Shown: piece after piece, positions 3,740-20,961 of the stretch
Numbering within the stretch: position 1 is the first letter of the stretch
How the letters are laid out: each line of letters starts with the position of its first letter
Source: Chloroflexia bacterium
Lineage (GTDB): Bacteria; Chloroflexota; Chloroflexia; Thermomicrobiales; JALYUS01
Length of the DNA: 20,964 nt
Direction: 5' to 3'
Assembly (NCBI GenBank): GCA_025924435.1
Contig: JAICIL010000037.1
Location: 1-20,964, forward strand
The notes under the pieces: model-generated
Told to the model about the DNA's origin: nothing
Databases searched by the model: none
Seen by the model: the letters and a program-made list of their open reading frames with translations, nothing else
Made by a program: the position numbers and the translations under genes

Positions 3740-3800
3740 GTTCGGGGTTCGGGGTTCGGGGTTCGGGGTTCGATGAAAGCCAGCCCGAACCTCGAACCCC
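3740..3800. repeat. Heptamer tandem repeat with inverted units forming a hairpin
   Basis: Five consecutive 7-base units (four GTTCGGG, then GTTCGAT) occupy 3740-3774. Complementary units at 3786-3800 pair with 3758-3772 to give a 15-bp stem (14 Watson-Crick pairs plus one G-U in the plus-strand RNA) around a 13-nt loop. It sits between the stop of the second ABC gene (3735) and the stop of the convergent hydrolase gene (3804), so it could act as a transcript-end structure for the plus strand. There is no T-run, so a classic intrinsic terminator is not shown. Confidence 0.85.
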
Positions 3801-3803
3801 TGT

Positions 3804-4607
3804 TCATCCGAAGAGCGTCAATTGCCGGTGGCGGATGCATTGCCAGATGGGGCCGTTCGCGTAGCGGGGTAGTGCCGTGACCGTCGCGCCGAAGATGCCG
3901 GCGGCGTGCAGCGCGCCGGAGACGGTGGCAACCGCCGTCTCCGGCGCGTTGTTGTTCGCGGAGAGGTGGGCGAGCCAGACATCGCGCGGGCGGTCGTGCA
4001 CGAAGGCTTGGGCGAGGAGGTCGCCGCAATCGGCGTTCGAGAGGTGGCCGCCGCGCCCCTTGATGCGCGCCTTGAGGAACCACGGATACGAACCGGCGTC
4101 GAGCATCGCGGCGTCGTAGTTCGCCTCGATGACGGCGAGATCCGCCGCGCCGATAGCGGCGCGCACGGCATCCGATGCGCCGCCGAGATCGGTGAAGAGC
4201 GCGACGGTGCAGCCGTCCGCCTCCACGACGAACCCGTACGTCCCGGCGGCATCGTGCGCGACGCGGCAAGGGGTCACGGCGATGTCGCCGACCGTCCATG
4301 TGCCGCCGGGATCGAAAGCGTCCGTGACGACATCGCCGAACCAGGTCACGTCGGCGACGAATTCCGGGCTGGCGACGATTGGCATGCGCGCCGCCTCGCG
4401 CAGGGGGCGGGCGGCCTGCGTGTGGTCGGAATGTTCGTGCGAGAGGATCACCGTCTCGATCTCGTCGGGGCGGACGCCGAGGCGGGCGAGATTCTTGCGC
4501 AGGCGGGGATACTGGACGCCACAATCCACGAGCAGGGTCCGGCGCGCGGCGCTACGGATCAATGTCGCATTGCCGCTGCTGCCGCTGCCGAGACTACAAA
4601 CGAACAC
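3804..4607 (-). CDS. Metallo-beta-lactamase-fold hydrolase, WalJ/YycJ type
   Basis: A 267-residue MBL-fold metallohydrolase. The N-terminus LGSGSSGNATL, the metal motif HEHSDH (His57, His59, Asp61, His62), His118, Asp140 (LFTD), GHLSN at 187-191 and His214 (LAHLS) match the WalJ/YycJ family in order. These proteins are zinc- or manganese-dependent; family members are reported as nucleases or linked to WalRK signalling and DNA repair, but the substrate here is unknown. The start is GTG at 4607; GGGAG about 5 nt upstream is the ribosome binding site and is itself one unit of a heptamer repeat. The gene is divergent from the UPF0182 gene. No walR/walK genes are nearby, unlike in Firmicutes. Confidence 0.88.
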   Translation of the reverse strand: MFVCSLGSGSSGNATLIRSAARRTLLVDCGVQYPRLRKNLARLGVRPDEIETVILSHEHSDHTQAARPLREAARMPIVASPEFVADVTWFGDVVTDAFDPGGTWTVGDIAVTPCRVAHDAAGTYGFVVEADGCTVALFTDLGGASDAVRAAIGAADLAVIEANYDAAMLDAGSYPWFLKARIKGRGGHLSNADCGDLLAQAFVHDRPRDVWLAHLSANNNAPETAVATVSGALHAAGIFGATVTALPRYANGPIWQCIRHRQLTLFG

Positions 4608-4611
4608 GCAT

Positions 4612-4646
4612 CACTCCCGACTGTCCACTCCTCACTGCCCACTACC
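4612..4646. repeat. Heptamer tandem repeat, five units of CACTNCC type
   Basis: The units are CACTCCC, GACTGTC, CACTCCT, CACTGCC and CACTACC, in an unbroken 7-base register. Read on the minus strand the units are GGNAGTG-like, and the last one (GGGAGTG) provides the ribosome binding site of the WalJ-like gene. The whole repeat lies in the 5' leader of that gene. Confidence 0.75.
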
Positions 4647-4655
4647 ATGAATCGG

Positions 4656-4668
4656 TGGTATCGTATCA
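4656..4668. promoter_or_regulatory. Putative overlapping divergent promoters (WalJ-like gene and UPF0182 gene)
   Basis: The 92-bp gap between two divergent genes holds TGG-TATCGT (4656-4664, plus) and, overlapping it on the minus strand, TGA-TACGAT (4668 down to 4660). Both fit extended -10 elements weakly (four of six bases each). Start sites would lie near 4671 (+) and 4653 (-). If real, the two polymerases could not bind together. This is inference from sequence only. Confidence 0.3.
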
Positions 4669-4699
4669 AGGGCATTCGTTCAATGAAAGAGAGTATCCA

Positions 4700-7612
4700 A
4701 TGGGTTTCGATTTCGGCGGTCGTCCGCAGCCGTTGCGCTCGGTGCGGCGCGATCCATCCGGCGGCGATGTCTCCGGTACGGGCGAACGACCGTGGTGGCT
4801 CTGGCCGGCGGCGGTGCTCGGCGCGCTGGCTCTGCTCGTCATTCTGCTGCTGATGACGGCCGGGTTCTGGGCAAACCTCTGGTGGTTCTCCAGCCTGGGC
4901 TTTCGGGATGTCCTCGTGACGCGCTACGTCGCGACAATCCTCTCGTTCCTGATCGGTTTCGTTATCGCCGCGCTCTTCATCGGCGTCAATCTGGTCGTCG
5001 CGCTCCGCTCCGACGGCGGGTTCGACCTGACAGTCGGCGATGTGCGGATGGGCCGGCGACTCAGCCTCGCCGCCCTCGTCGCCGTGACCGCCGGTCTGGG
5101 CGGGCTGTTCGCCATTTCGGTCGGCGCGGAGTGGGAACTCTTCCTCCGCTTCCTGAACCGGACGCCGTTCGGCGTGGCGGACCCGCAGTTCCATCAGGAT
5201 GTCTCATTCTACGTCTTCACACTGCCCGTCCTCGCATTCTGGCGGTCGTGGGCGATGTCCCTGATTATCCTGACCGCCATCGCGGTCGCGGCGGTCTACG
5301 CGGCGAAACTGGGCGCGGACCTCGCGGGCGGGCGGTTCCACCTGCCGCCGCATACGCGCGCCCATCTCTCGATCCTCGGCGTTTTCTTCCTCGTCGGCAT
5401 GGCGCTCGGCTACTGGCTCGATACGCGCGAGTTGGTCTATTCGACGCGCGGCGTCGTCGAGGGCGCGTCCTACACCGACGTGAACGCGCAAATCCCGGCC
5501 AATTACATCCTGCTCGGCATCTCGCTCGTCGCGGCGATCCTGCTCGGCATCAATGCGTTCCGCCGCCAGTTGCCGCTCTTCGTCGGGACGCTCGGCGTAT
5601 GGGCGGTCGCGGCGGTCCTCATCGGGTCCGGCTATCCGGCGGTCGTCCAATCGGCGAGCGTCCGGCCGAACGAATTGGGGAAGGAACGGCCCTATATTGA
5701 CCGCAACATCGCGATGACGCGGCAGGCATTCAATATTGACCAGGTGGATCGCCAGCAACTCGCCGGCGTCGGCGATCCAACACAGGCAGGCCTCGACGCG
5801 AACAAGGCATCCATCGCCAATATCCGCCTCTGGGATGACCTGGTGCTCTTGAAATCGTATCCGCAATTGCAGCAGATCCGGCAGTACTACACCTTCAAGG
5901 ATGTGGACATTGACCGCTATCAGGTGGACGGCCAGTATCGGCAGATCATGCTCTCCGCGCGCGAGCTGGATTCCTCCCAACTCGCGGCACAATCGCAGAC
6001 GTGGCAGAACCGCCATCTCATCTATACCCACGGCTACGGCGTCGTCGCGAGCACGGCGAATGAGGTCGTCGGCGGTGGCAACCCGAACATCATCCTCGGC
6101 GACATCCCGCCGCGCGGGCCGAGCGATCTCCAGGTGCAGGAGCCGCGCATCTACTACGGCGAGGTGACGAATGACTACGTCTTCGTGAACACGAAGCAGC
6201 CGGAGTTCGACCGCCCATCGGGGACGGCGGCGCAGTCGCAGGGGGAGTACACGTCGTACGGCGGCGGCAATGGCGTCCCGGCGGGCAGCGTGTTCCGGAA
6301 GATCGTGCTTGCCGCGTACCTCGGCGAGCCGAAGGTGCTCCTCAGCGGCGACATCACCGGCAATGCCGAGGCGCTCTACCGCCGCAATGTCGTGGATCGC
6401 CTGCACACGGTCGCGCCCTTCCTCCGCTACGACAACGACCCGTATCTCGTCGTCATTGACGGCCGGCTTGTCTGGGTGAACGACGCGTACACGCTCACGA
6501 GCCGCTATCCGTATGCGACGCAGTTCAATGGCGGGACCGGGATGACCGGCGGCTTCAACTATATTCGCAACAGCGTCAAGGCGACGGTGGACGCCTACGA
6601 CGGCACTGTCCGCCTCTATGTCGTTGATCCTTCCGACCCGATCGTCGCCACGTACGAGAAAATCTACCCGTCGCTCTTCGTGCCGGGCAGCACGGCCTCG
6701 CCCTCGCTGCGGGCGCATTTCCGCTACCCCGAAGATTACTTCAATGTCCAGACCTCGATGTACACCCGCTATCACGTCACCGATCCGCAGGTCTTCTACG
6801 GCAGCGAGGATCAGTGGGCGATCGCCAATGTGCAGGTCGGCGAGAAGAAGGATGTGCAGCCCATTTCCTCATACTACGTGCTCGTCAGATTGCCCGGCCA
6901 GCAGCGGGAGGAGTACGCGCTCGTCCGACCGTTCACGCCCGGCGGCGGTACGAATAACCGGCAGAACATGGTCGCATTCCTCGCCGGTCGGAGCGACGGC
7001 GACAACTACGGCAAACTCGTGGACTACGAGTTCCCCCGGCAATTGACGGTACAAGGCCCGCAGCAGGTCGAGGCGCGCATCAACCAGGAGCCGGACATAT
7101 CCAAGGAGATTTCGCTCCTCGACCAGGCGGGTTCCCAGGTGATTCTGGGGAACTTCCTCATCATCCCGATCGAGAACACGCTCCTCTATGTCGAGCCGCT
7201 CTATGTGCAGGCGGTCAACAGCCCATTCCCGGAATTGAAGCGCGTGATCGTCGCGTCTCAGAATGGTGTTGTGATGCGGCCCTCGCTGAACGAGGCGATT
7301 GCCGCGCTCATCAGCGGCGGCGCGCCGAGTACGACCGCGCCGGTGACGAATGGGGCGGCGCCCGGCCAAACGTCGCCGCCCGCCACGGGTGGCTCCGACG
7401 CGACGCAGGCCGCCGCCGCGCTGACTCATTACCAGCGGGCGCAGGATGCGCTGAAAACGGGCGACTGGGCGACCTTCGGCAGCGAATTGGCGCAGGTGCA
7501 GCAGATTCTCCAGCAACTTTCCGGATCGCCCCCTACTCCGACGGCGCAACCGCCCGGCGGCACGCCGGTGGGAACGCCGAGGCCCGCACCGAGCGCAACC
7601 CCGCGCCCTTAG
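4700..7612 (+). CDS. UPF0182 family integral membrane protein
   Basis: A 970-residue UPF0182 protein of unknown function. The first 320 residues hold seven predicted membrane segments (about 33-57, 71-102, 120-141, 168-202, 222-240, 268-286, 291-312). A large soluble domain follows (about 320-870) with family-like stretches such as KERPYIDRNI and YPEDYFNVQ. The last 100 residues are a Thr/Pro/Gly-rich tail around one helical segment (THYQRAQDALKTGDWATFGSEL), a layout typical of the family. The soluble domain probably faces outside. The ATG at 4700 was chosen because MGFDFGG directly precedes the charged leader and first membrane segment; the GAGAG upstream is a weak ribosome site. The reading frame is open further upstream but not protein-like. 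Its stop overlaps the convergent yggS stop by 4 nt. Confidence 0.92.
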   Translation: MGFDFGGRPQPLRSVRRDPSGGDVSGTGERPWWLWPAAVLGALALLVILLLMTAGFWANLWWFSSLGFRDVLVTRYVATILSFLIGFVIAALFIGVNLVVALRSDGGFDLTVGDVRMGRRLSLAALVAVTAGLGGLFAISVGAEWELFLRFLNRTPFGVADPQFHQDVSFYVFTLPVLAFWRSWAMSLIILTAIAVAAVYAAKLGADLAGGRFHLPPHTRAHLSILGVFFLVGMALGYWLDTRELVYSTRGVVEGASYTDVNAQIPANYILLGISLVAAILLGINAFRRQLPLFVGTLGVWAVAAVLIGSGYPAVVQSASVRPNELGKERPYIDRNIAMTRQAFNIDQVDRQQLAGVGDPTQAGLDANKASIANIRLWDDLVLLKSYPQLQQIRQYYTFKDVDIDRYQVDGQYRQIMLSARELDSSQLAAQSQTWQNRHLIYTHGYGVVASTANEVVGGGNPNIILGDIPPRGPSDLQVQEPRIYYGEVTNDYVFVNTKQPEFDRPSGTAAQSQGEYTSYGGGNGVPAGSVFRKIVLAAYLGEPKVLLSGDITGNAEALYRRNVVDRLHTVAPFLRYDNDPYLVVIDGRLVWVNDAYTLTSRYPYATQFNGGTGMTGGFNYIRNSVKATVDAYDGTVRLYVVDPSDPIVATYEKIYPSLFVPGSTASPSLRAHFRYPEDYFNVQTSMYTRYHVTDPQVFYGSEDQWAIANVQVGEKKDVQPISSYYVLVRLPGQQREEYALVRPFTPGGGTNNRQNMVAFLAGRSDGDNYGKLVDYEFPRQLTVQGPQQVEARINQEPDISKEISLLDQAGSQVILGNFLIIPIENTLLYVEPLYVQAVNSPFPELKRVIVASQNGVVMRPSLNEAIAALISGGAPSTTAPVTNGAAPGQTSPPATGGSDATQAAAALTHYQRAQDALKTGDWATFGSELAQVQQILQQLSGSPPTPTAQPPGGTPVGTPRPAPSATPRP

Positions 7613-8337
7613 CCAGGGGAGGGGAGACCTGCAAAGAGGGCGCGACCGACACGGATATGGGTCGCGCCCTCTTCAATCGCAATCGGGTAATCGTTGGACA
7701 TGCCCATCGAGAGAATCGGGAGCGAATGGGACGGATTCGCCTCGACGAGCGTGTCGCGCAGCGCCCGCAAGGATCGAAAGGCCACGCGCGCATCTTCCGG
7801 GTCGGTGACTTGGGCGGCAATGGTCATCAGTCCGCGCAGTCGGAGATGGTCGCAGTTTTTGACGACATATCCATGGAGATCGCAAGCATCTCCCGCATCC
7901 GCCCCTTGCTTCGCCCGATCCTCCGCCACGTTCACTTCCAGCAGCACATCCAGCACGACGCCCTGCCGGATCGCTTCGTGCTGCAGCGCGTCGGCGATTG
8001 CCGTGCGATTGACGGAATGGACCATCGCGAAGAGGGCGACGACATCGCGCGCCTTATTCGTTTGCAGGTTGCCGATCATGTGCAACCGGACAGCGGCGGG
8101 TGGGGGAGAGAAGGGGCTGCGTCGGCCAAATTTCTCCACCGCGTCCTGCACGCGATTCTCCGCGATGTCACGGACGCCTGCGGCGATCAATGCATCGGCG
8201 ACCGGGCGATCCACGCTCTTCGTGACGCCGATCAGCGTCACATCGGCGGGGTCGCGCCCCGCGCGGCGGCAGGCGGCGGCGATTTCCGCGCGGACGCGGG
8301 AGACATTCCCTTCGACAATGGCGGCGGCATCGGACAT
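7609..8337 (-). CDS. yggS: YggS/PLPBP family pyridoxal 5'-phosphate homeostasis protein
   Basis: A 242-residue single-domain protein with the alanine-racemase-like TIM-barrel fold. Lys40 in LIGVTKSV is the expected PLP-binding lysine. MIGNLQTNKA, NVAEDRAKQG, LRGLMTIAA and the C-terminal SMGMSNDYPIAIEEGATHIRVGRALF are hallmarks of the family, which keeps free PLP and amino-acid pools in balance and has no known enzyme activity. The ATG at 8337 has GAGGAG in the last codons of pgeF, 6 nt after whose stop it begins, so it is the third gene of a speE-like/pgeF/yggS operon. PgeF and YggS also adjoin in the ftsZ-sepF region of Actinobacteria, but ftsZ and sepF are not here. The stop interlocks with that of the convergent UPF0182 gene. 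Confidence 0.95.
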   Translation of the reverse strand: MSDAAAIVEGNVSRVRAEIAAACRRAGRDPADVTLIGVTKSVDRPVADALIAAGVRDIAENRVQDAVEKFGRRSPFSPPPAAVRLHMIGNLQTNKARDVVALFAMVHSVNRTAIADALQHEAIRQGVVLDVLLEVNVAEDRAKQGADAGDACDLHGYVVKNCDHLRLRGLMTIAAQVTDPEDARVAFRSLRALRDTLVEANPSHSLPILSMGMSNDYPIAIEEGATHIRVGRALFAGLPSPG

Positions 8338-8343
8338 GGCTGA

Positions 8344-9135: not shown

Positions 9136-9139
9136 GGCG

Positions 9140-10780: not shown

Positions 10781-10810
10781 GCCGTAGGTCCTCCGTACTA
10801 GACGTAATCG

Positions 10811-10824
10811 GCAGTCAGTGGTCA
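10811..10824. repeat. Two imperfect heptamer units
   Basis: GCAGTCA followed by GTGGTCA, in the leader of the spermidine-synthase-like gene. This is a short remnant or seed of the heptamer family found in other gaps; alone it would not be convincing. Confidence 0.35.
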
Positions 10825-10875
10825 GAGAGAAACGGCAGAGGCCGGCACCCGTTTCGCACGGAGATTGCTGCGCGG

Positions 10876-10884: not shown

Positions 10885-10892
10885 CAGCACAG

Positions 10893-10913
10893 GTGCCGAG
10901 TGCCGAGCGCCGA
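10893..10913. repeat. Heptamer tandem repeat, three units of GTGCCGA type
   Basis: GTGCCGA, GTGCCGA and GCGCCGA stand in a strict 7-base register between the terminator of the 95-residue gene and the promoter of the spermidine-synthase-like operon. Confidence 0.6.
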
Positions 10914-10920
10914 GCAAACA

Positions 10921-10951: not shown

Positions 10952-10974
10952 CGCTGAAATACCCTGTAATCGCG

Positions 10975-11262
10975 TTATTCGACCTCGACCGGGCGTGCGG
11001 GCGCATCCAGCGTGGCGTAACCATCGCGCACGGAGGCGGCGATGTACCCAAAGGTCTGCCGGAAGTACGCCGGGTATTTCTCCCATTCGTCCGCCATCCC
11101 CGGCGCGAACTTCATTGCCGTCGCTTTCGCGTCGTCGCCCTCGACGGTGATCTCCTGCAACAGACCGAGCCGTGCGAGCGTCACCCGATCCGCGAGGCGC
11201 ATGATCTGAATCAACAAGTCCTTGAAATCTTCCACGATTCTCCTCATTTCGAGCGCATCCAC
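10975..11262 (-). CDS. Hypothetical 95-residue protein
   Basis: The family is not recognised. The product is soluble and mostly helical in appearance, with an amphipathic N-terminus (RRIVEDFKDLLIQIMRLADRVTLARLGLLQEI), a middle part ending in MADEWEKYPAYFRQTFGYIAAS, and a Pro/Val/Glu tail. There is no signal peptide, membrane segment or cysteine. The start is uncertain. ATG at 11262 has GAAGG 7 nt upstream, ATG at 11247 is in frame, and a GTG at 11235 is preceded closely by AGGAG. A putative extended -10 (11285-11277) and a hairpin after the stop suggest a single-gene transcript. Codon use resembles the neighbours, which supports a real gene. Confidence 0.65.
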   Translation of the reverse strand: MDALEMRRIVEDFKDLLIQIMRLADRVTLARLGLLQEITVEGDDAKATAMKFAPGMADEWEKYPAYFRQTFGYIAASVRDGYATLDAPARPVEVE

Positions 11263-11276
11263 CAGCCTTCAGGCGT

Positions 11277-11285
11277 ATGGTAGCA
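11277..11285 (-). promoter_or_regulatory. Putative extended -10 promoter of the 95-residue gene
   Basis: On the minus strand TGC-TACCAT (hexamer 11282-11277) fits an extended -10. Transcription would start near 11270, only 8 nt before the ATG at 11262, which would favour one of the later start codons. Heptamer repeats occupy the -35 region. Confidence 0.4.
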
Positions 11286-11288
11286 GAA

Positions 11289-11330
11289 ATCAGCAGTCAG
11301 TAGTCGGTAGTCCGCAGTCCGCACTCGCTA
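11289..11330. repeat. Heptamer tandem repeat, six units of GTCNGYA type
   Basis: The units are ATCAGCA, GTCAGTA, GTCGGTA, GTCCGCA, GTCCGCA and CTCGCTA in unbroken 7-base register. This lies in the divergent gap between the 95-residue gene and the HTH gene. Confidence 0.8.
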
Positions 11331-12218: not shown

Positions 12219-12246
12219 CTACTGACTTCTGACTACCGGCTACTGG
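12219..12246. repeat. Heptamer tandem repeat, four units of CTACTGG type
   Basis: CTACTGA, CTTCTGA, CTACCGG and CTACTGG in 7-base register, between the shared terminator and the stop of the NifU-like gene. Confidence 0.6.
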
Positions 12247-12248
12247 AT

Positions 12249-12473
12249 TTACTCGACAGGCACGAGTTGGGTAACGCCGGGGACCTGTTGGCGGAGGAAG
12301 CGCTCGATGCCGTAGGTCAGGGTCATCGTGGACATCGGGCAGCCGCCGCACGCGCCATGCAGCCGGACCATCACAACGCCGTCGTCGGTGACTTCCACCA
12401 GTTCGAGGTCGCCGCCGTCCGCCTGCAATGCCGGGCGCACCTTATTGAGCGCGGTCAAGACCTGATCCTTCAT
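12249..12473 (-). CDS. NifU C-terminal domain (Nfu-type) Fe-S cluster protein
   Basis: A 74-residue stand-alone NifU C-terminal domain. Family features are VRPALQADGGDLELVEV, VMVRLHGACGGCPMSTMTL and a C-terminal VPGVTQLVPVE. Cys42 and Cys45 form the CxxC pair that binds a [4Fe-4S] cluster across a dimer. Such proteins act as cluster carriers or scaffolds in the cytoplasm. ATG at 12473 is chosen because AAGGAG lies 6-7 nt upstream; an ATG six codons earlier overlaps that ribosome site. No nifS/suf genes are nearby. An extended -10 at 12564-12556 and the hairpin at 12181-12213 suggest a single-gene transcript lying just behind the alaS-ruvX operon. Confidence 0.93.
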   Translation of the reverse strand: MKDQVLTALNKVRPALQADGGDLELVEVTDDGVVMVRLHGACGGCPMSTMTLTYGIERFLRQQVPGVTQLVPVE

Positions 12474-12494: not shown

Positions 12495-12508
12495 CGATGA
12501 GCGATGAG
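12495..12508. repeat. Two heptamer units of CGATGAG type
   Basis: Two exact CGATGAG units in the leader of the NifU-like gene. They are short, but part of the same pattern as the GCTCGAT units 70 bp away. Confidence 0.45.
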
Positions 12509-12555
12509 CAACGCGCAGCCCATCCCCAATACATCATCGGTGAGAGACGAAGCCG

Positions 12556-12570: not shown

Positions 12571-12605
12571 CCTCAATGTTCATTGCTCGATGCTCGATGC
12601 TCGAT
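12571..12605. repeat. Heptamer tandem repeat, five units, overlapping the 3' end of ruvX
   Basis: CCTCAAT, GTTCATT and three exact GCTCGAT units. The ruvX stop codon (12582-12580) lies in the second unit, and the last residues of RuvX (RASSIEQ) are encoded by the GCTCGAT units. Confidence 0.75.
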
Positions 12606-13077
12606 TCCGACGCCGGTCGAGATACCCCTGCAAAATCAACGCGGCGGCACGCGCATCGAGGGTTGCCCTCCCCTCCCGCGTCGGTCGCGTGCCGCGCGAG
12701 CGGCCCTGCTTCCCCTCGAATGTTCGTGCGGCCTGCGCCGTCGTCAACCGTTCGTCCATCAAGGATATGTACACACGTAGCGGTTCGAGCGCCGTGCGTA
12801 GACGGGCGACGAATTCCTCCGTCCACACTGCTTGAACGCCGCGTTCGCCTTTCATATTCCGCGGCAGACCGACGACTACCCGCCGTACCCGATATTGCTG
12901 CACCAATGCGACTATCTCGCGGATTGCGTCGTCTATTCCCTCATTCTTTTGGGATATGTTTAGGGTTCCCTCCGGGGAGGCGATAATTTGCAGTTCATCG
13001 CTCACCGCCACGCCGATGCGGTGCGTACCGACATCCAAGCCGATTATCCGCTCCCGCGGCGGATCCGCGGCGCTCAC
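12580..13077 (-). CDS. ruvX: RuvX/YqgF pre-16S rRNA processing nuclease, putative Holliday junction resolvase
   Basis: A 165-residue YqgF-fold (RNase H-like) nuclease. Catalytic acidic residues are Asp15 (GLDVGTHRIGVAVSD), Glu109 (MDERLTTAQA) and Asp141 (LDARAAALILQGYL); VVGLPRNMKGERG at 68-80 is also typical. In E. coli YqgF matures the 5' end of 16S rRNA; Holliday-junction activity is reported for some homologues. The start is GTG at 13077, whose last bases form the TGA stop of the upstream gene (GTGA overlap), so translation is coupled. An ORF extension upstream is rejected as it overlaps that gene. The C-terminal RASSIEQ is written by heptamer repeat units and lies beyond the conserved domain. 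Confidence 0.94.
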   Translation of the reverse strand: MSAADPPRERIIGLDVGTHRIGVAVSDELQIIASPEGTLNISQKNEGIDDAIREIVALVQQYRVRRVVVGLPRNMKGERGVQAVWTEEFVARLRTALEPLRVYISLMDERLTTAQAARTFEGKQGRSRGTRPTREGRATLDARAAALILQGYLDRRRNRASSIEQ

Positions 13078-14750
13078 GTCGGTACGCCAACGCGTACATG
13101 GATATGCGACGCGCTGCGCGGCATGCGCTCTCGAAGCACCTTCGGCAGCCATGACGGACCGTAGCGAACCGTGTAGCCGTTCACCTTCGACTCGGTGACG
13201 AGCGTCCGCTCAGCATCGCGCGCATCCCGCCCGACCAATGCGGCGCGCATCCGCGCCAGGTCGGCGTCGGTGATCACCGCCCGCGTCGTGCCGGTCACGG
13301 TGGCGAAATAGCGCACCAACGGCCCCTGCACATCCACGAACGTCGGCTTCGACTTGACGACCGTTTCGGGGAGTACTCGTCGCGTGCCGCCGTCGGTGAC
13401 CCCCGTCTCCTGTGCGGCCTCGCCCAGGCGCCGATTAATCAGCGCGTCGAAATCGGCGTTCTGGTAGACGGGCATCCGCGCGGTGATCGTCAGGCGGAGA
13501 TGGACGCTGTCGGCCCGCGTCCCGGCGGCCGGTTGCGCGACCACGGCGGGCGGGCGGAGCGTCAAGTAGTCGTTGAGCGCCGTCGCACCGACGGGCAGCG
13601 CGGCGTTCACGTCGCTGAGTGCATGCATCCGCAGGTCGGCTTCGAGCCGCATGCGCAGGCCCGCGATATCGTCGTCGCTGACGACGGCCACCTGCTTCTC
13701 GGTACCGCCCGTGATCTCGCCGCTGATGTAGGTCACATTCTCCGTGTATCGCGCCGAGAAACCGGCGGCGAGGTTACCCGCCGGGCCGGGTTGCGAGGCG
13801 CGCACCTTGCCGCTCGCCTCCCCCAGTTGGCCGCGCACGAAGTCCAGACCCGGCACGACAACATCGCTGACGAGCACATAGGAGGTATCGCGCGGCCCCT
13901 TCAGGGTCGCGCCCGCCTTAAACGTCGTCGCGCCGTCGGCCCGGCTGCGAAAGGTCATCGTCCCCGAAGCCGTGCCGTCCGGGACGGTGCTCGTGCCCGT
14001 CGCGGCAGCATCGCCCTCGCGCGCGAGGGTCGTCTCAAACGTCTTCGTCTGGAGGGTGTTCGGATCGTCCGTCGGCGCGACTGAGACGGCGAATGGCACA
14101 ACCCGCGAGAACGGCTGCTCCACGGGCCGCACGGCGACATCGGCGGTATGGACCTTCCCGACGACTGCCGCCGCACCACCGACGCCGCCGAGCGCGAGGC
14201 AGATGACCATCAGCGCGACGAGCGAGTGACGCGTGACGCGTATCGAGCGCCGCCTGCGGACGACCGAGCGCCGCGTACTACCTGTCGGGTGCGGAGGACT
14301 CCCCGCTGGCTGCCGCCCGCCGCCCGCCGCCCGCTGGGCGTGATACGCGCCGGTCCGATTCGGCGGCCCGTACTGGATATCGGGGACGGGCGCGGTGCCC
14401 GCTTCGGGAGAGACGCCGGGTGGCCGCACGCGATAGCCGAACACCAGCGCCAGCCCTGTCCGGTGCGCATCCCCCACCTCGATGGTGACGGCAAGCCGCC
14501 GCGCGAGCCGCACGGCGTCCAATGCACGGAAGTGATCGGGCGTCGCGAACAATACGGAGAGCGGGTCGAGCCGTAGCGTCACACTCCCCGGCGGGCCGTC
14601 GCGCAGTTGGTCGAGCACCCGTTCGAGCGTCGCATGCTGCGTGACCCGGACAACGGGACAGGTCTGGGGGCTGGCTATCTCAGCAGAAACTGAGGACTGA
14701 GGATCGGGCGTCCGCGCCCCACGATCACCTTGACGCCGTTCATCAATCAT
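13074..14750 (-). CDS. Baseplate-J/gp47-like single-pass membrane protein
   Basis: A 558-residue protein in three parts. Residues 33-110 form a small alpha/beta domain (TLERVLDQL, SVTLRLDPL, LDAVRLARRLAVTIEV). A Pro/Gly/Arg linker leads to one membrane helix at about 175-197, after RRRR, so the N-terminus is probably cytoplasmic. The outer part (about 205-380) resembles the baseplate J domain: TASGTMTFRSRADGATTFKAGATL, then VPGLDFVRGQ and ASQPGPAGNLAAG. No phage genes are nearby, so this is a cellular membrane protein of unknown function; similar proteins occur in Chloroflexota. ATG at 14750 is the only good start before the first domain, though its ribosome site is weak. It is between alaS (65 nt) and ruvX (4-nt overlap). 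Confidence 0.78.
   Translation of the reverse strand: MIDERRQGDRGARTPDPQSSVSAEIASPQTCPVVRVTQHATLERVLDQLRDGPPGSVTLRLDPLSVLFATPDHFRALDAVRLARRLAVTIEVGDAHRTGLALVFGYRVRPPGVSPEAGTAPVPDIQYGPPNRTGAYHAQRAAGGGRQPAGSPPHPTGSTRRSVVRRRRSIRVTRHSLVALMVICLALGGVGGAAAVVGKVHTADVAVRPVEQPFSRVVPFAVSVAPTDDPNTLQTKTFETTLAREGDAAATGTSTVPDGTASGTMTFRSRADGATTFKAGATLKGPRDTSYVLVSDVVVPGLDFVRGQLGEASGKVRASQPGPAGNLAAGFSARYTENVTYISGEITGGTEKQVAVVSDDDIAGLRMRLEADLRMHALSDVNAALPVGATALNDYLTLRPPAVVAQPAAGTRADSVHLRLTITARMPVYQNADFDALINRRLGEAAQETGVTDGGTRRVLPETVVKSKPTFVDVQGPLVRYFATVTGTTRAVITDADLARMRAALVGRDARDAERTLVTESKVNGYTVRYGPSWLPKVLRERMPRSASHIHVRVGVPT
14690..14703. repeat. Two heptamer units of CTGAGGA type inside coding sequence
   Basis: Two exact CTGAGGA units within codons 16-21 of the baseplate-J-like gene, before its first domain. 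They are the complement of the GTCCTCA units at 14798-14823 and pair with them over 15 bp. Confidence 0.65.
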
Positions 14751-14797
14751 ACCGCGCTCATTCCCCAGCGATCATGCTGATTGCCGAGGCCGAGTGA

Positions 14798-14823
14798 GTC
14801 CTCAGTCCTCAGTCCTCAGTCCT
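14798..14823. repeat. Heptamer tandem repeat, GTCCTCA type, covering the alaS stop
   Basis: Three exact GTCCTCA units and a partial fourth. The alaS stop (14818-14816) lies within the third unit. Together with 14689-14703 it forms a 15-bp inverted repeat enclosing the start codon of the next gene. Confidence 0.75.
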
Positions 14824-17443
14824 TCTCCAAATGTGTTGCGATGTGCTGCCGGGCGTTGTCGAGCGCGGCATCGAGGGTGTCGCCGTTCGGCCCGCCGCCC
14901 TGCGCGCGCCCATCCCGCCCGCCGCCGCGCCCGCCGACCACCGGCGCGGCCTCCCGGAGGATCGCGCCCGCCGTGATCCCCCGCGCGATCAGGTCGTCGG
15001 AGACGAGGGCGAGCAGTTTCGCCTTGCCCTCTTCCACGCTGCCCAGCACGATGACGCTCGGACCGAGTTGGTCGCGCAATTGGTCGCCCAGCGCGCCCAG
15101 GTCGCCCGCCGCCGCGCGCGCGACGAGCACCCGCGCGCCATCCACGGTGCGCGCCTCATCGAGCAAACCGCCGACCGCCGACCGCGCCACCCGCGCGCGC
15201 AGTTCCTCGATCTCGCGGTCTTTCGCGCGCAGCTGATCGCGCTGGGCGTGGATCCGCTCCGGCAACTCTTCCGGCGTGCCCCGGAACTCCGCCGCCAGTT
15301 GGCCGACCAGCGTTTGCAGGTCGCCGATGTACGCGATGGCCAGCGCGCCCGTCATCGCCTCGATCCGGCGCACGCCCGCCGCCGAACTCTCCTCGCCGAT
15401 GATGACGAGCGGCCCGATCTCGCCGGTGCGCCCTACATGCGTGCCGCCGCACAGTTCTTTGGAGTAGTCGCCGACGCGGACGACGCGGACGACATCGCCG
15501 TATTTCTCGCCGAAGAGCGCCGTCGCGCCGCCCGCCACCGCCGCATCGTACGGCATGACGGCGGTCTCGACCGGCGTGTCCGCCAGAACCTGATCGTTGG
15601 CGATCTCCGCGACGCGCCGCAGTTCGTCACCGGTCATCGCGCCGCTGTGCGTGAAGTCGAAGCGCAGCCGGTCGGGGGCGACGAGCGACCCCGCCTGCTT
15701 GGCGTGCTCGCCGAGCACGATATGCAGCGCGCGGTGCAGGAGGTGCGTCGCCGTGTGGTTCCGGCGGATCGCCACCCGCCGCGCGAAGTCCGCCGCCGCC
15801 CGCACGCTGTCGCCGACGCGCAGCGACCCTTCCGTGATGTGCCCCCGGTGCGCGACCAGCCCGGCGTTGGGCCGCCGCGTATCCACGACGGCGAAGATGC
15901 CCGTCTGCGCGGTCAGCAGACCCGTGTCTCCCACCTGCCCGCCGGACTCGGCGTAGAACGGCGTGCGGTCGAGGAAAACGACGACCGTCTCCCCCGCCTC
16001 CGCGCCCTCCTGCGCGCCCGCGTCGCCGAGGATCGCCACGACCGTCGCGTCCGCCTCCGTCGTCTCGTAGCCGAGGAACTCGGTCGGCGCGAGGCCAAGA
16101 CCGCCGATGGCCTGCATGTTCGCCATCGCCGCCTTGTCGAACGCCGCGCGGGAGCGGCTCTGCTCGCGTTGCGCCTGCATCGCCCGCGCGAAGCCCGGCT
16201 CGTCTATCGTCAGCCCCTGCTCGTCCGCCAGTTCGCGCGTCAGGTCGGGCGGGAAGCCGAAGGTGTCGTAGAGACGGAAGGCCTGCTCGCCCGGAATTTC
16301 GGTCGTCCCCTGCCGCTGCACCTCCTGGGTGAGCGTCGCGAACCGACCGAGGCCCGCCGCGAGCGTCCGCCCGAAGGCCTCCTCCTCCCGCTCGACGACG
16401 CGCAAAATGTGTGACTCGCGCTCCCGCAGTTCCGGGTACGCGTTCCTGCGCGCCATCTTCGCGATCACCGCGCCGACGGTTTCCGTCGCGAAGGGCCGCT
16501 CGATGCCGAGGAGCCGCCCCTGCCGGATCAGCCGCCGCAGGACGCGCCGCAGGATGTAGCCGCGCCCCTCGTTGCTCGGCAGGACGCCGTCGGCGATCAG
16601 GAACGTGACACCCCGGCTGTGATCGGAGATGATCCGCAGGGCGCGGTCTGTTTTCGCGTCCCGACCGTAGATCGCCCCCGCCACCTGCGCCGCCTTCATC
16701 ACAATCGGCTCGTAGAGGTCCGTCTCATAGACCGTCGGCGTGCCCTGGAGGATCAGCGCGATGCGCTCCAATCCCAAGCCGGTGTCAATATGCGGGCTGG
16801 CCAGCCGGACATTCTCCCCGTCCGCGCTGCGGGCATACTGGATGAAGACGAGGTTCCACGTCTCCAAATACCGGTCGTCCCGGTCGGGGCCGCCCGCCGG
16901 GAAATCCGCGCCATATTGGCTTCCTCGATCAATATAGATCTCCGAGTCCGGGCCATTCGGTCCGACGGGGCCGGGCGCCCACCAGTTCTCCTCCAACGGC
17001 ACGATACGCTCCGGCGCGAAGCCGAGCGCGCGCCAGTATGCGCGGGCTTCCTCATCCTCCGGGTGGATCGAGGGATAGAGGCGGTCGGGGTCCACCCCGT
17101 AGCCGTTCGTCAGCAGGTCGTACGCGAAGCGCGTCGCGTCCTCCTTGAAATAATCCCCCACCGAGAAGTTGCCGAGCATCTCGAAAAAGGTCGTGTGCCG
17201 CTCGTCGCCCACCTCCTCGATGTCCGGCGCGCGGAAGCATTTCTGCACCGTGACGAGGCGCGGTGCGGGCGGCGGCTCCAAGCCGAGGAAATAGGGCGTG
17301 ATCTGCTGCATCCCTGCGATCGTCAGCAGCGACCCCGTGTCGCTCGGCGGGATGAGCGACGCGCTCGGCAGGTGGCGGTGGGCATGCCGCACGAAGTAGT
17401 CAACGAAGGTCTGGCGGATTGTCTCGCTGTCCATCGGGTCCAT
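14816..17443 (-). CDS. alaS: Alanine--tRNA ligase
   Basis: An 875-residue, full-length AlaRS. It charges tRNA-Ala and edits mischarged Ser/Gly. The class II catalytic domain is N-terminal (RHTTFFEMLGNFSVGDYFK at 82-100; DTGLGLERIA at 220-229). The editing domain has zinc/active residues His563 and His567 (NHTATHLLH) and Cys665 and His669 (CGGTH). The DHHA1-type C-terminal part follows a coiled-coil stretch (about 722-755) and includes GGRGGGRDGRAQGGG at 838-851. ATG at 17443 has AAGGAG 9 nt upstream. A TTGACA-N18-TACAAT promoter gives a leader of about 28 nt, too short for a T-box. It is the first gene of the operon with the baseplate-J-like gene and ruvX. Confidence 0.98.
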   Translation of the reverse strand: MDPMDSETIRQTFVDYFVRHAHRHLPSASLIPPSDTGSLLTIAGMQQITPYFLGLEPPPAPRLVTVQKCFRAPDIEEVGDERHTTFFEMLGNFSVGDYFKEDATRFAYDLLTNGYGVDPDRLYPSIHPEDEEARAYWRALGFAPERIVPLEENWWAPGPVGPNGPDSEIYIDRGSQYGADFPAGGPDRDDRYLETWNLVFIQYARSADGENVRLASPHIDTGLGLERIALILQGTPTVYETDLYEPIVMKAAQVAGAIYGRDAKTDRALRIISDHSRGVTFLIADGVLPSNEGRGYILRRVLRRLIRQGRLLGIERPFATETVGAVIAKMARRNAYPELRERESHILRVVEREEEAFGRTLAAGLGRFATLTQEVQRQGTTEIPGEQAFRLYDTFGFPPDLTRELADEQGLTIDEPGFARAMQAQREQSRSRAAFDKAAMANMQAIGGLGLAPTEFLGYETTEADATVVAILGDAGAQEGAEAGETVVVFLDRTPFYAESGGQVGDTGLLTAQTGIFAVVDTRRPNAGLVAHRGHITEGSLRVGDSVRAAADFARRVAIRRNHTATHLLHRALHIVLGEHAKQAGSLVAPDRLRFDFTHSGAMTGDELRRVAEIANDQVLADTPVETAVMPYDAAVAGGATALFGEKYGDVVRVVRVGDYSKELCGGTHVGRTGEIGPLVIIGEESSAAGVRRIEAMTGALAIAYIGDLQTLVGQLAAEFRGTPEELPERIHAQRDQLRAKDREIEELRARVARSAVGGLLDEARTVDGARVLVARAAAGDLGALGDQLRDQLGPSVIVLGSVEEGKAKLLALVSDDLIARGITAGAILREAAPVVGGRGGGRDGRAQGGGPNGDTLDAALDNARQHIATHLEKD

Positions 17444-17477
17444 TGGACACTGCTCCTTATGCCGATCCGCTCATCGC

Positions 17478-17507
17478 ATTGTAGGCGACGGCGGGCCGAA
17501 CTGTCAA
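17478..17507 (-). promoter_or_regulatory. Near-consensus sigma-70-type promoter of alaS
   Basis: On the minus strand TTGACA (17507-17502), an 18-bp spacer and TACAAT (17483-17478). The expected start is near 17471. The hexamers and spacing are identical to those of the promoter at 11461-11490. Confidence 0.8.
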
Positions 17508-17755
17508 CGGAAATCATCGTACGTACTGTCCGTACACAGCGGAAAAGACTTAGCACGGCGCGATCCGCGCGTATTGTGCGAGATGATTATGGCTATGAAA
17601 GATGGGCCAGCGGGGCGGCTGGCGAGCCGCCCACGCAACACCTCTGTGAAGATTCCATCAACGTATCCATTCCCGGTAGCGTGGCTTTGAAACGTGCCCG
17701 GAGCGTACCCGGCTCCTACATGAATTACGCGCCCGATGTCGGCGTTCGGACGCTT
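17508..17755. other. Gene-free divergent region between alaS and uvrC, with small hairpin
   Basis: The divergent gap between alaS and uvrC is 17444-17770. Apart from the alaS promoter and a -10 element just before uvrC, it holds GGGCGGCT-GGCG-AGCCGCCC at 17613-17632 (perfect 8-bp stem, 4-nt loop) and GTACG/CGTAC repeats near 17519-17535. No protein-like frame, tRNA or heptamer repeat was seen. If uvrC has a second, more distant promoter, the hairpin would be in its leader. Confidence 0.4.
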
Positions 17756-17764
17756 TGGTACAAT
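17756..17764 (+). promoter_or_regulatory. Putative extended -10 promoter of uvrC giving a leaderless start
   Basis: TGG-TACAAT is a full extended -10 match with the hexamer at 17759-17764. Normal spacing puts the transcription start at 17771, the A of the uvrC ATG. No Shine-Dalgarno sequence precedes that ATG, which agrees with a leaderless mRNA. Confidence 0.55.
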
Positions 17765-17770
17765 GATAGC

Positions 17771-19732
17771 ATGAATACGGACGCGACTGCTCCCACGATC
17801 ACCAGCACGGAAACGGACGACGAGCAGACGGCGCGCGAAGCGTCCGTCGTCCTCGATGACGCCGCGAGCGCCGCGCCGCGCGCCCGCCGCTCCGGCGAGC
17901 GGCACCCCTTCGCGGAGCGGCTCGCCGCGCTGGCGACCGCGCCCGGCGTCTACCTGATGAAGGACGCCGCGGGGAAAGTGATCTACGTCGGCAAGGCGCA
18001 ATCGCTGCGCGACCGGGTGCGCTCCTATTTCGGCTCGCCGCGCTCGATGACCGGCAAGACCCGCGAACTCGTGCGCCACATCGCGGATTTCGAGGTGATC
18101 CGCACCGACACGCCGCGCGAGGCGCTGATCCTCGAGAATGAACTGATTAAGCGGTATCAGCCGCACTACAACGTGCTGCTGAAGGACGACAAGACGTACC
18201 CATACCTGAAGATCACCGACGAGGAATGGCCGCGCGTCGTCATCACGCGGCGCGTCGCCAACGACGGCGGGCGGTACTTCGGCCCGATCACCACCGGCGG
18301 CTCGCCGCAGCGGACGCTCGACCTCCTCGAACGCCTCTTCCAGTTCCGCAAGTGCACGATGACGATCAAGGGCGATCAGCGCCCCTGCCTCTACTACCAC
18401 CTCCACCGCTGCCTCGCACCGTGCGCCAGCAAGACGACGCCCGAGGCGTACGAGGCGGAGCTGAAGCGGGCCGGGTTGCTGCTCATGGGCAAGGACGAGA
18501 CGATCAAGGCCGATCTCGTCGCCAAGCGAGATGCGGCGAGCGAGGACCTGCAATTCGAGCGCGCCCAACGCTATCAGGAAGACATCCGCGCCCTGGAGCA
18601 CGTCCTCCAGCGGCAGAAGATCGTCTCGCGGCGGGATGCGGACGCCGATGTGATCGCCCTGGCGCGCGGCGAGGGCGGCGACGCGGCGGTGCAAGTCCTC
18701 AACGTGCGGGGGCATAAGATCCACGGCACGGAGCATCTGCGACTCACGGGCGCGCGGATTGACGACAGCGACGCCGCCCTCCTCTCCTCGTTCGTCGAGC
18801 AGTACTACGCGACACAGCGCGCCGTGCCGCCTTTACTGATCCTGCAAAAGCCGCTCCTCGCGGACGAGCAGGGTGCCGTCGCCGATTTCCTGCGCGGGCG
18901 GCGGGGCGGCAAGGTGGAGATGGTCGTGCCGCAGCGCGGGGAACGGATGCAACTCGTCGCGATGACCGCCGAGAGCGCGGCGGAGAATCTGGCGCAGGAT
19001 CGTCTCCGCTGGCTGACCGACGAGCAGAAGATGACCGCCGCGCTCTCGGAATTGCAGGACGCCCTCGGCCTGACCGGCTGGCCGCGCCGCATCGAGTGCT
19101 ACGACATCTCCAACACGCAGGGGACGAACAGCGTCGCCAGCATGGTCGTCTTCGAGGATGCGCGCCCGAAGAAGAGCGACTACCGGAAGTTCGCCATCAA
19201 AACCGTGGAAGGGGCGAACGATTTCGCCTCGATGAACGAGGTGATTGGCCGCCGGTTCAAGCGGCTCCAGACTCCGGATGCAACCGACGCCGCCGGTTGG
19301 TCGGCCTGGCCGGACCTCATTATCATTGATGGCGGCAAGGGGCAGTTGGGCGCGGCGCTCGACGCCCTGCGCGCCCTCAACCTCGACAACCTGCCGATTG
19401 TCGGCCTCGCCAAGCAGAACGAGGAACTCTACCTCCCCGGTCGGCGCGACCCGGTGATCCTGCCGCGCGACGCGCAGGCGCTCTACCTCGTCCAGCGGGT
19501 GCGCGACGAGGCGCACCGTTTTGCTCTCACCTATCACCGCCAGAAACGGACGGCGGCGGGGCTGCATTCCAGCCTCGACGATGTGCGCGGCATCGGGCCG
19601 AAGCGCAAGAAGCAACTGCTGGCGCACTTCGGGTCGGTGAAGCAGATCAAGCAGGCGACGGTCGAGGAGCTGGCCCAGGCGCCGGGCATGACGCGCGATG
19701 TCGCGGAGCGGATCAAGGCCGCGTTGGGCTGA
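17771..19732 (+). CDS. uvrC: UvrABC system protein C, excinuclease subunit
   Basis: A 653-residue UvrC, the nuclease making both incisions in nucleotide excision repair. Domains: GIY-YIG (about 56-135; PGVYLMKDAAGKVIYVGKA), a cysteine cluster Cys195, 206, 214, 218 in the position of the [4Fe-4S] site reported for E. coli UvrC, a UvrB-binding UVR helix pair (about 245-282), the RNase H-like endonuclease (Asp445 in YDISN, Asp520 in IIIDGGKGQ, His582), and tandem HhH at 600-653. The ATG at 17771 gives an acidic, Ala-rich N-terminal extension of about 50 residues before GIY-YIG, longer than usual. It was chosen because a -10 element abuts it; an in-frame ATG at 17720 lacks a ribosome site. The gene is divergent from alaS. 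Confidence 0.96.
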   Translation: MNTDATAPTITSTETDDEQTAREASVVLDDAASAAPRARRSGERHPFAERLAALATAPGVYLMKDAAGKVIYVGKAQSLRDRVRSYFGSPRSMTGKTRELVRHIADFEVIRTDTPREALILENELIKRYQPHYNVLLKDDKTYPYLKITDEEWPRVVITRRVANDGGRYFGPITTGGSPQRTLDLLERLFQFRKCTMTIKGDQRPCLYYHLHRCLAPCASKTTPEAYEAELKRAGLLLMGKDETIKADLVAKRDAASEDLQFERAQRYQEDIRALEHVLQRQKIVSRRDADADVIALARGEGGDAAVQVLNVRGHKIHGTEHLRLTGARIDDSDAALLSSFVEQYYATQRAVPPLLILQKPLLADEQGAVADFLRGRRGGKVEMVVPQRGERMQLVAMTAESAAENLAQDRLRWLTDEQKMTAALSELQDALGLTGWPRRIECYDISNTQGTNSVASMVVFEDARPKKSDYRKFAIKTVEGANDFASMNEVIGRRFKRLQTPDATDAAGWSAWPDLIIIDGGKGQLGAALDALRALNLDNLPIVGLAKQNEELYLPGRRDPVILPRDAQALYLVQRVRDEAHRFALTYHRQKRTAAGLHSSLDDVRGIGPKRKKQLLAHFGSVKQIKQATVEELAQAPGMTRDVAERIKAALG

Positions 19733-19759
19733 ACTGCTGCGCTTAGGGGATATGTCGGC

Positions 19760-19789
19760 GCGACAAGGATGCCGCGCATCTGCTACACT
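19760..19789 (+). promoter_or_regulatory. Putative promoter of the membrane-protein gene pair
   Basis: TGC-TACACT (19781-19789) is an extended -10, with GCGACA at 19760-19765 (four of six -35 bases) at an 18-bp spacing. The expected start near 19796 gives a 27-nt leader before the ATG at 19823. Confidence 0.45.
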
Positions 19790-19822
19790 CCCTCCGTTGC
19801 GGTGTACGTACCTTGAGGGATC

Positions 19823-20749
19823 ATGGAAGAAGCGGCGGATCGCAGACATCTGACGGGCGAATGGCAAACCGACGATGAATCGGCGCACCCCGCATTCGCC
19901 GAGGCCGAGGGTGCCGCGTACGACGCCCCCCTCCCCGCATCGGCGCGCGTCTCAATCATCGCCCTTGTCGCGGTCGGCACGGTGGGGGCCGCGCTGCTCT
20001 TCCTGCTCGGCGCGCTCGCCCGGCGCGGCGCCGAGCAGGGGAGCGTCGCCTTCACGCTGCGCGCCCCGGGCGGCTGGAAATTCTGGCTCCCCGGCCTGCT
20101 GCTGGCGATCATCGTCGGCGCGGTCGTTGTCCTGCTGGCGCGGCGCGATGAGCGACCGGAGCTGCTTAGCATCACCGCCGGCATCTTCCCGGCGGTCTCT
20201 CTCGTCACCGGGTTGCTGATTATCGCGGTCTATCACGACCGGCGATGGTGGTTCGTCGCGCCGGTCGTCGTCTGGCTGGCGATCCTTGTCGGGACGATCG
20301 CGCGCGCCCTGCTCGCGGCGCCGGAGGGGTTCACGCGCGATGTCGCCCGCACCTCGCTCACGGTGGTCAGTTATGTGATCGGCTTCATCGCGCTGGCGAT
20401 GGTCTATATCAACAAATACCGCTCCGTCTTTTCCGCGTCCGCGGTCGCGGTCATCGCCTTCCTGCTCCTCCTCCAGATGACCGATGGCGAGCACGCCGCG
20501 CTCCTGCGCCGCGTCGTCTATGCCGTGGTCGGCGCGCTAATTGTCGGCCAGGTAACATGGGTCATCAACTACTGGTCCGCGACCGGCTGGACGGGCGGCG
20601 CGTTTCTCCTGGCGGTTTTCTACCTGATCGCGGGCCTGAGCGCGGCGCAATTGCGGGATCGTGTCCAGCCGTTCGATATTGTCGAATTCGGCGGCGTGGC
20701 GCTCGTCGCCATCGCCATCGTCTCCGCCGCCGTCTGGTTCCAGCGATGA
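19823..20749 (+). CDS. Multi-pass membrane protein of unknown function
   Basis: A 308-residue integral membrane protein with an acidic, soluble N-terminus (residues 1-42) and about nine hydrophobic segments (roughly 43-66, 88-106, 113-134, 140-160, 173-195, 202-218, 228-250, 255-275, 286-306). Loops carry few conserved-looking polar residues, so no transporter or enzyme class can be assigned. It may belong to an uncharacterised Chloroflexota membrane family (possibly DUF5656), which is a memory-based guess. The ATG at 19823 has GAGGGA just upstream. Its stop overlaps the ATG of the following small gene (ATGA), indicating translational coupling and perhaps a physical partnership. Confidence 0.82.
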   Translation: MEEAADRRHLTGEWQTDDESAHPAFAEAEGAAYDAPLPASARVSIIALVAVGTVGAALLFLLGALARRGAEQGSVAFTLRAPGGWKFWLPGLLLAIIVGAVVVLLARRDERPELLSITAGIFPAVSLVTGLLIIAVYHDRRWWFVAPVVVWLAILVGTIARALLAAPEGFTRDVARTSLTVVSYVIGFIALAMVYINKYRSVFSASAVAVIAFLLLLQMTDGEHAALLRRVVYAVVGALIVGQVTWVINYWSATGWTGGAFLLAVFYLIAGLSAAQLRDRVQPFDIVEFGGVALVAIAIVSAAVWFQR

Positions 20750-20937
20750 CACCGCGTATCCTTCCCACGACCGAGTACGATTTGCTCGACCTCCTCGATC
20801 GGCTGGAATCCCTCGTCGAGGATATGGACGACCTGGCGATCACGACGCGCGACGAGGCGGAGGAACTGATCGCGACGATCCACCAGCGGCTGGACGAACA
20901 CGAGAGTTCGGCGTTCGATGTTCGGAGTTCGGAGTGA
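20746..20937 (+). CDS. Small acidic helical protein coupled to the membrane protein
   Basis: A 63-residue, strongly acidic protein. Leucine/isoleucine spacing in LLDLLDRLESLVEDMDDLAITTRDEAEELIATIHQRL suggests two amphipathic helices able to form a coiled coil. No family is recognised. The ATG overlaps the stop of the membrane-protein gene by 4 nt. The last ten residues (SSAFDVRSSE) and the stop are written by GTTCGGN heptamer units that continue past the gene into a hairpin, so the natural C-terminus may have been replaced by repeat sequence. It may be a cytoplasmic partner of the membrane protein (inference from coupling only). Confidence 0.65.
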   Translation: MTPRILPTTEYDLLDLLDRLESLVEDMDDLAITTRDEAEELIATIHQRLDEHESSAFDVRSSE

Positions 20938-20961
20938 GCCATCGAACATCGAACGCCGAAT
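20906..20961. repeat. Heptamer tandem repeat with inverted units; 18-bp hairpin
   Basis: Direct units GTTCGGC, GTTCGAT, GTTCGGA, GTTCGGA (20906-20933), a GTGAGCC spacer unit, then inverted units ATCGAAC, ATCGAAC, GCCGAAT (20941-20961). TTCGGCGTTCGATGTTCG at 20907-20924 pairs perfectly with 20943-20960 around an 18-nt loop. The left arm is the 3' end of the small acidic gene. It is the same unit type as at 3740-3800, and it is close to the window edge. Confidence 0.88.

Follow-up and report, generated by a model that had tools for sequence, protein, structure and literature searches.

The 20,964-nucleotide (nt) contig JAICIL010000037.1 of a Chloroflexia bacterium (assembly GCA_025924435.1; hereafter the window) carries short tandem arrays of seven-base units, or heptamers, mostly between its genes. 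On balance, we lean towards the view that most of these arrays are hairpin arms or what is left of them, and that the hairpins belong to a dispersed family of stop-codon elements, which resembles repetitive extragenic palindromes (REPs) and the short tandemly repeated repetitive (STRR) sequences of cyanobacteria and is kept uniform by exchange of single units. The element is made of about four heptamers, a core and about four inverted heptamers. This architecture, its placement, its polarity, the limited arms, the recurring unit classes, the shared cores and the lack of target-site duplication are all observed in relatives of the window organism, and most loci of the window itself fit as hairpins or hairpin remnants.

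Heptamer arrays recur in a few unit classes

A period-7 identity scan of the window (score at least 9) returned 10 segments, against 0.37 ± 0.55 expected from 30 dinucleotide shuffles. Other periods were also raised, namely 14 (6 segments), 6 and 12 (4 each), 9 (3) and 21 (2), with about 0.4 each in the shuffles; the excess at period 14 is a harmonic of period 7. An earlier reading made from the letters alone (the sequence-only reading) had listed ten period-7 loci, and these are real: nine were recovered at a score of at least 7.5, and the tenth, at 4612, which is too degenerate for the scan and was called period 14 by Tandem Repeats Finder, is supported by five ACT trimers in an exact 7-base register, as AGT/ACT chains of at least four never occurred in 200 shuffles. 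The same reading had confined the arrays to gaps and gene ends, which is too strict, since 3 of the 13 segments scoring at least 7.5 (the GC-rich 14223, 14312 and 15167) lie wholly within open reading frames (ORFs).

Using the 970-residue product of 4700-7612 as the query, six loci were obtained, of which one is close (L001; 86% identity over the full query). It belongs to G001, the Chloroflexia bacterium isolate GZL_HY_2_bin.18, a metagenome-assembled genome (MAG) of 4.4 Mb. The window aligns to the G001 contigs C18, C593 and C578, the long matches being 74-86% identical at the DNA level. Pattern search led to G005 (draft/MAG), a more distant relative that also has arrays. The G001 sample comprises 80 stretches (770,327 bp), 40 of them picked for holding hits, and the G005 sample 20 stretches, 14 of them so picked; counts of hairpins, arms, cores and placement take all stretches, and only the figures for contigs C1-C40 of G001 are free of hit selection. 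Gene ends were taken from the calls of our own script.

In C1-C40 (269,833 bp), 25 period-7 segments were found against 2.5 in shuffles, so the excess predicted for the rest of the genome does exist as far as relatives can tell. Periods 6 (11 versus 2.5), 9 (16 versus 2.5) and 12 (13 versus 0) are raised as well, as expected of coding DNA. The hit-selected G005 sample gave 76 period-7 segments against 3. The statement that most gene gaps hold an array is true of the window, where 7 of 9 gaps of at least 60 bp do so (a hand count from script gene calls and arrays), but not of C1-C40, where 17 of 139 do.

Five positions of the unit are fixed and two vary. The 155 arrays of G001 cluster mainly into class B (about CAGTAGT, 63 arrays), class A (GTTCGNN, 49) and class C (about ACTGAGG, 17), and the 76 arrays of G005 into units close to AGTCCGT (26) and CAGTCGT (21); GTAGNCN is a further recurring pattern in the relatives. 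As the classes recur at many loci, the heptamer word is not private to each locus, contrary to the earlier claim that each locus has its own unit. The pattern GTTCGNNGTTCGNNGTTCG occurs 157 times in G001 (reversed control 0); AGTAGNCNGTAGNCNGTAG has 139 occurrences there and 19 in G005 (controls 0). By coding overlap, 113 of the 155 G001 arrays are less than 30% coding and 36 more than 70%. Two simpler rules for the words were tried and dropped. AGT occurs in the left arm of 50/66 G001 and 21/29 G005 hairpins, yet in only 19 of 40 distinct units, and it is not the leading trimer in C1-C40; ACT occurs in the left-arm unit of four hairpins in G001 and none in G005. A purine-rich left arm prevails by 54 to 7 in G001, but by only 18 to 9 in G005.

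Among 41 genomes, the class A pattern has matches in five (157 in G001, 15 in G009 and one each in G005, G021 and G022), and its reversed control gave single matches in G026 and G032. The class B pattern matches 19 of 158 genomes of the class, at many places in G001, G005 and G124 and at few in G125 and G126. The hit-selected stretches of G124-G126 contain 55 period-7 segments against 1, with some longer arrays and less tidy hairpins. A further 20 relatives were sampled by one stretch each. Among the 19 stretches obtained, that of G004 holds a clear array and that of G018 a GC-rich run; three are devoid of G and C and look masked. BLAST against plasmids with a pure class B repeat as query returned no match, perhaps because the repeat was masked as low complexity. 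Some arrays look different. The 15 matches of G009 are GTTCGAC/GTTCGTC tandems (e.g. G009:C12:91510-91542) in a genome otherwise without the class A/B family; long single class B arrays (G044:C21:8777-8893 and G081:C218:145-369) are unlike the roughly four-unit hairpins of G001; and G124 has very long mixed arrays of the AGAGGGC/AGAAGTC kind (L200:7017-7163 and L204:10240-10395).

The unit is a hairpin with short arms of one polarity

Of the 155 arrays in G001, 116 have an inverted partner within 130 bp, as do 58 of the 76 in G005; with random flanks as controls, the numbers are 5/155 and 6/76. The partners are far above the control, which indicates that the unit is a hairpin. The sequence-only reading had missed this pairing, in which 3740, 14690/14798 and 20906 are arms. 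The core measures 8-108 nt in G001 (median about 25, 84 hairpins) and 9-123 nt in G005 (median 46, 39 hairpins). Neighbouring class A or B arrays within 130 bp have the same polarity and the same class in all 57 cases (36 B, 21 A). Among arms of at least three units, three, four and more units are found in 32, 30 and 2 arms of class A and in 44, 45 and 10 arms of class B, so that 151 of 163 arms hold three or four units, not the open-ended number expected of simple slippage repeats. The outer edge of class B reads A-GTAG, with the A present in 76 of 99 arms; this GTAG foot tag is absent in class A.

The order of unit variants along one arm is not mirrored in the other. With register controlled, variable positions match between class A arms at 0.575 versus 0.539 ± 0.049, which is not beyond chance; in class B they match at 0.846 versus 0.652 ± 0.033, the reversed-order control giving 0.852. 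The controlled arm-match test was not positive, and the idea that one arm had recently been copied from its partner by fold-back was rejected.

Hairpins adjoin stop codons

Placement was assessed for hairpins scoring at least 14 with less than 30% in called ORFs (56 of 66 in G001, 27 of 29 in G005). Measured from the hairpin edge, all 53 adjoining stop codons of G001 lie at -22 to +12 nt. In G005, 24 of 26 lie at -28 to +15 nt and the other two at 58 and 358 nt. The next start is at most 30 nt away in 33/54 cases in G001 and 19/27 in G005. Short gaps are not the only cause of this proximity: where a co-directional gap leaves at least 40 nt of free space, 16 of 19 hairpins keep to within 15 nt of the stop, whereas uniform placement would put 34% there and reached at most 68% in 5,000 simulations. 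Beside class B elements, 25 of 41 genes end on a TAG within the element, and 24 of these 25 TAGs are at +1, +8 or +15, i.e. one position per reading frame. Beside class A elements, 23 of 26 genes stop 3-17 nt ahead of the first core word. Stops in all frames as the general cause of period 7 were considered and discarded: the idea fits class B, but class A and some G005 words are stop-free by eye.

This placement is also what would be seen if functional RNA hairpins, such as terminators or structures protecting mRNA 3' ends, had arisen repeatedly by selection at gene ends, with the heptamer form as a by-product. The three window hairpins (3737..3800, 20906..20960 and 14689..14823) have strong predicted RNA folds (z in Table 1), which agrees with such an origin. 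However, stem mismatches on the transcribed strand of co-directional gaps are not enriched in G.U, with 27 G.U versus 38 A.C in G001 and 3 versus 8 in G005 (convergent gaps of G001 have 8 versus 4). The arm match of class A at chance level and the cores common to several loci also speak against it, and we consider this origin quite improbable. No Rfam family matched in the window.

Shared cores suggest that whole elements are copied

Cores were compared after masking unit remnants. Same-class pairs scoring at least 12 number 20 of 867 in G001 (0.4 expected) and 5 of 193 in G005 (0.9 expected). The G001 pairs include the paralogs L081 and L090, which also share flanks; apart from these, the flanks beyond the arms of the best pairs look unrelated by eye. 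Cores are thus common to loci far above chance, suggesting that whole elements have been copied. The excess across classes is smaller (5 of 1,278 in G001 at a score of at least 11, against 1.25), with strong cases in both genomes (one in G001 at a score of at least 14, against 0.0; 2 of 213 in G005 at a score of at least 15, against 0.05). Here the same core carries different arms: GTCGTGA at L147 and AGTCCGT at L153 and L157 in G005, and class A at L087 and class B at L128 in G001. A universal core motif was sought and not found, the enriched words being mostly unit remnants.

Target-site duplications of at least 3 nt were found in 0 of 29 class A elements and in at most 1 of 44 class B elements at any tested offset (control 0.3-0.6). 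The elements therefore lack the duplication that marks the miniature inverted-repeat transposable elements of DDE transposons. Classical REPs mobilised by REP-associated tyrosine transposases (RAYTs; Y1/HUH) are likewise dispersed extragenic palindromes, and this origin would account for the gene-end location and the lack of duplications; the outer edge of class B also recalls their GTAG tag (PMC3733652; here and below, statements on cited papers refer to the parts of their text available). Of the two tags that may mark the foot of a REP palindrome, GTAG or CGTC, class A, however, has neither, and heptamer arms or a heptamer build are not among the REP features described in that part of PMC3733652. 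Y1_Tnp (PF01797) has no match in G001, though it has two in G005; as G001 is a MAG, the absence is not final. Taken together, we regard RAYT mobilisation as very unlikely.

Another conceivable source is a telomerase-like enzyme that extends a DNA piece with templated heptamers at either end before its insertion. It would yield inverted same-word arrays of fixed polarity around an arbitrary core. Arms that have one word in common, but with the variants in a different order, fit it as well. RVT_1, however, has no match in G001, G005 or G125, the first two being MAGs, while G124 and G126 do match. The heptamer-templated process proposed by the sequence-only reading is therefore not borne out in G001 and G005, and we regard the telomerase-like route as extremely improbable.

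The heptamer word changes at orthologous gaps

At corresponding gaps of the window and G001, the word is kept in some cases and changed or lost in others. Class A is present in both at 20906, and class C in both at 14690/14798. At 12219, the class B array of the window faces a remnant at most. At 3740, window class A corresponds to a short class B hairpin; at 4612, the ACT array to a class A hairpin; and at 10893, AGTGCCG to a four-unit ATTGCTC array. No array was found at the G001 gaps corresponding to 11289, 12495 and 12571. Conversely, a class A hairpin lies 3' of uvrC in G001 and none in the window (the labels uvrC and alaS were assigned by eye). The idea of a fixed period with a changing word, up to different words at one gap, is supported by this comparison. 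In two element pairs, the orthologs at 20906 and the G001 paralogs L081/L090, none of 75 fixed positions but 10 of 28 variable ones have changed, along with 2 of 27 core and 21 of 147 flank positions. These two pairs are indicative of fixed positions that tend to be held and variable ones that may change fast.

Local amplification only, i.e. independent tandem heptamers in each gap made by polymerase slippage with a preferred 7-nt step, a hypothesis attributed to Mrazek and co-workers (PMC4679880, PMC4692102), would account for the period and for loss and change at orthologous gaps, and within the two element pairs the units have changed at variable positions only, as unit slippage would give. 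Yet few arms exceed four units, the arrays have inverted partners and a single polarity, and cores and classes are common to many loci. Free slippage alone does not explain different classes at orthologous gaps, the fixed polarity and the limited arms. We hold slippage, one of the two processes put forward by the sequence-only reading, unlikely to be the whole story.

Because the same cores occur with different arm words, and different words at orthologous gaps, the heptamer word could also be viewed as an exchangeable coat on the hairpin element, with both arms rewritten in concert and the same system at work in Chloroflexota, Cyanobacteria and Xanthomonas. In this broad form the proposal appears decidedly improbable. 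The most surprising part of the data, that the word changes at conserved sites and where cores are shared, rests on few cases.

A proposed history of the elements

A dispersed hairpin family with unit-level exchange could work as follows. The elements lie directly at a stop codon, and many have the start region of the following gene on their other side. Whole hairpins would be copied to new sites without leaving a duplication, gene ends possibly being where a long hairpin is tolerated. Class B units would supply stops in each of the three reading frames. Inside an element, single units may slip or exchange, which would keep five positions uniform and let two change fast, and both arms may come to consist of a new unit type. 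The probable role of the hairpins in the cell is that of intercistronic stem-loops that protect 3' ends or uncouple translation.

Several observations weigh against this view. An inverted partner went undetected for 39 of the 155 G001 arrays and 18 of the 76 G005 arrays, and the window yielded only three inverted pairs. Ten of 66 G001 hairpins and 2 of 29 in G005 lie at least 30% inside called ORFs and were excluded from the stop count. Many cores are unrelated to each other. The co-directional stems without G.U excess show no clear sign of selection on RNA pairing, and the searches for Y1_Tnp and RVT_1 reported above offer no mover in G001.

Loci of the window

The arrays and arms of the window are listed in Table 1. 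The hairpin 3737..3800 sits between convergent genes, an ABC transporter (1933-3735) and a metallo-beta-lactamase fold gene (3804-4607), and starts 2 nt past the stop ending at 3735. The segment 14689-14703 falls inside an ORF only under the longer start of that ORF. The last codons of the small ORF 20746-20937 are the class A array, which would be translated if the ORF is real; the ORF has no Pfam match, and the counterpart stretch of G001 has a diverged copy of the array. Another small ORF, 10979-11271, lies the other way round between its neighbours in G001 (BLAST reverse match, 86.5%) and has heptamer arrays on both sides in the window, which could have mediated the inversion.

Table 1. 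Heptamer arrays and hairpin arms of the window, with the z score of the predicted RNA fold
Position	Feature	Partner or parts	Context or source	Fold z
3737..3800	class A hairpin	GTTCGGG left array 3737-3772, inverted arm 3784-3800		-4.1
4612..4643	degenerate array, ACT x5 in 7-base register		divergent gap	
10893..10915	AGTGCCG array		period-7 scan	
11284..11326	class B-like array (AGTNNGT/AGTCCGC)		period-7 scan	
12219..12246	class B array		adjoins stop of NifU-domain gene 12249-12473	
12495..12517	GAGCGAT array, two units		period-7 scan	
12573..12605	GCTCGAT array		overlaps 3' end of RuvX gene 12580-13077	
14689..14703	class C left arm (ACTGAGG)	inverted partner 14797..14823		
14797..14823	class C right arm (AGTCCTC)		reaches stop of gene 14816-17443	-4.9
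20906..20935	class A left arm (GTTCGNN)		3' end of small ORF 20746-20937	
20940..20960	class A right arm	pairs with 20906..20935		-7.0

Relation to known heptamer systems

Heptamer repeats are a known but poorly explained kind, and for their excess in bacteria the papers cited here mainly offer a polymerase-footprint hypothesis. We found no report of a heptamer stop-codon hairpin architecture in Chloroflexota in the open-access literature searched. Dispersed heptamers as such are on record in the TAACTGA repeats of Beggiatoaceae and, within Chloroflexi, in the GATAGRA satellites of Chloroflexus aurantiacus (PMC4679880, PMC6749651); each has one word, and in the available text they figure as satellites or direct repeats, without being described as hairpins at stop codons.

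The closest likeness is to the GGGAATC (GGGANTN) repeats of Xanthomonas, which have five fixed and two free positions, prefer four units, occur as inverted pairs in 70 and 75 cases, lie close to stop codons or overlap them, and keep the same gene context in 83% of cases between two species (PMC4692102). The two free positions, the number of about four units, the inverted pairing and the stop proximity are common to these repeats and the elements of the relatives. The Xanthomonas repeats, however, have one G-rich word, studied as quadruplex-forming, whereas here there are several words, most of them not G-rich and differing at some orthologous gaps. GGGANTN itself is not among the main classes of the window, G001 and G005.

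The sequence-only reading had likened the arrays to cyanobacterial STRR heptamers, and this likeness is supported. STRR sequences, with CCCCART, TTGTCAG and others as characteristic words, come from a different phylum and mostly use different words. The words found here are related to them but not identical; the Trichormus unit GGAGYCA is one base off class B. The 150-kb plasmid NC_007410 of Trichormus variabilis has 7 period-7 runs against 0.3 and two hairpins scoring at least 13, a GGAGYCA-like one 9 nt from a stop and another inside a coding gene. In Nostoc, STRRs are 7-bp intergenic repeats able to fold as hairpins, one of them near a gene 3' end (PMC2670836); tandem 7-bp repeats that are dispersed in intergenic DNA and can form hairpins are common to both systems. 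The P6b stem of the Nostoc tRNA-Leu intron is likewise built from heptamers, with one of two words (TDNGATT or NNTGAGT) and repeated shifts between them (PMC4476775), but at a single intron site and not as a dispersed family.

What sets the present elements apart from the Xanthomonas and cyanobacterial repeats is that several different seven-base words occur side by side in one genome, and that the word can change at the same spot between related species. What had been a repeat statistic can in this way be followed as a defined element, by tracing between strains where it is gained or lost and where its word changes, and one architecture links the separate reports on Xanthomonas, the STRRs of Nostoc and the stem of the tRNA-Leu intron.

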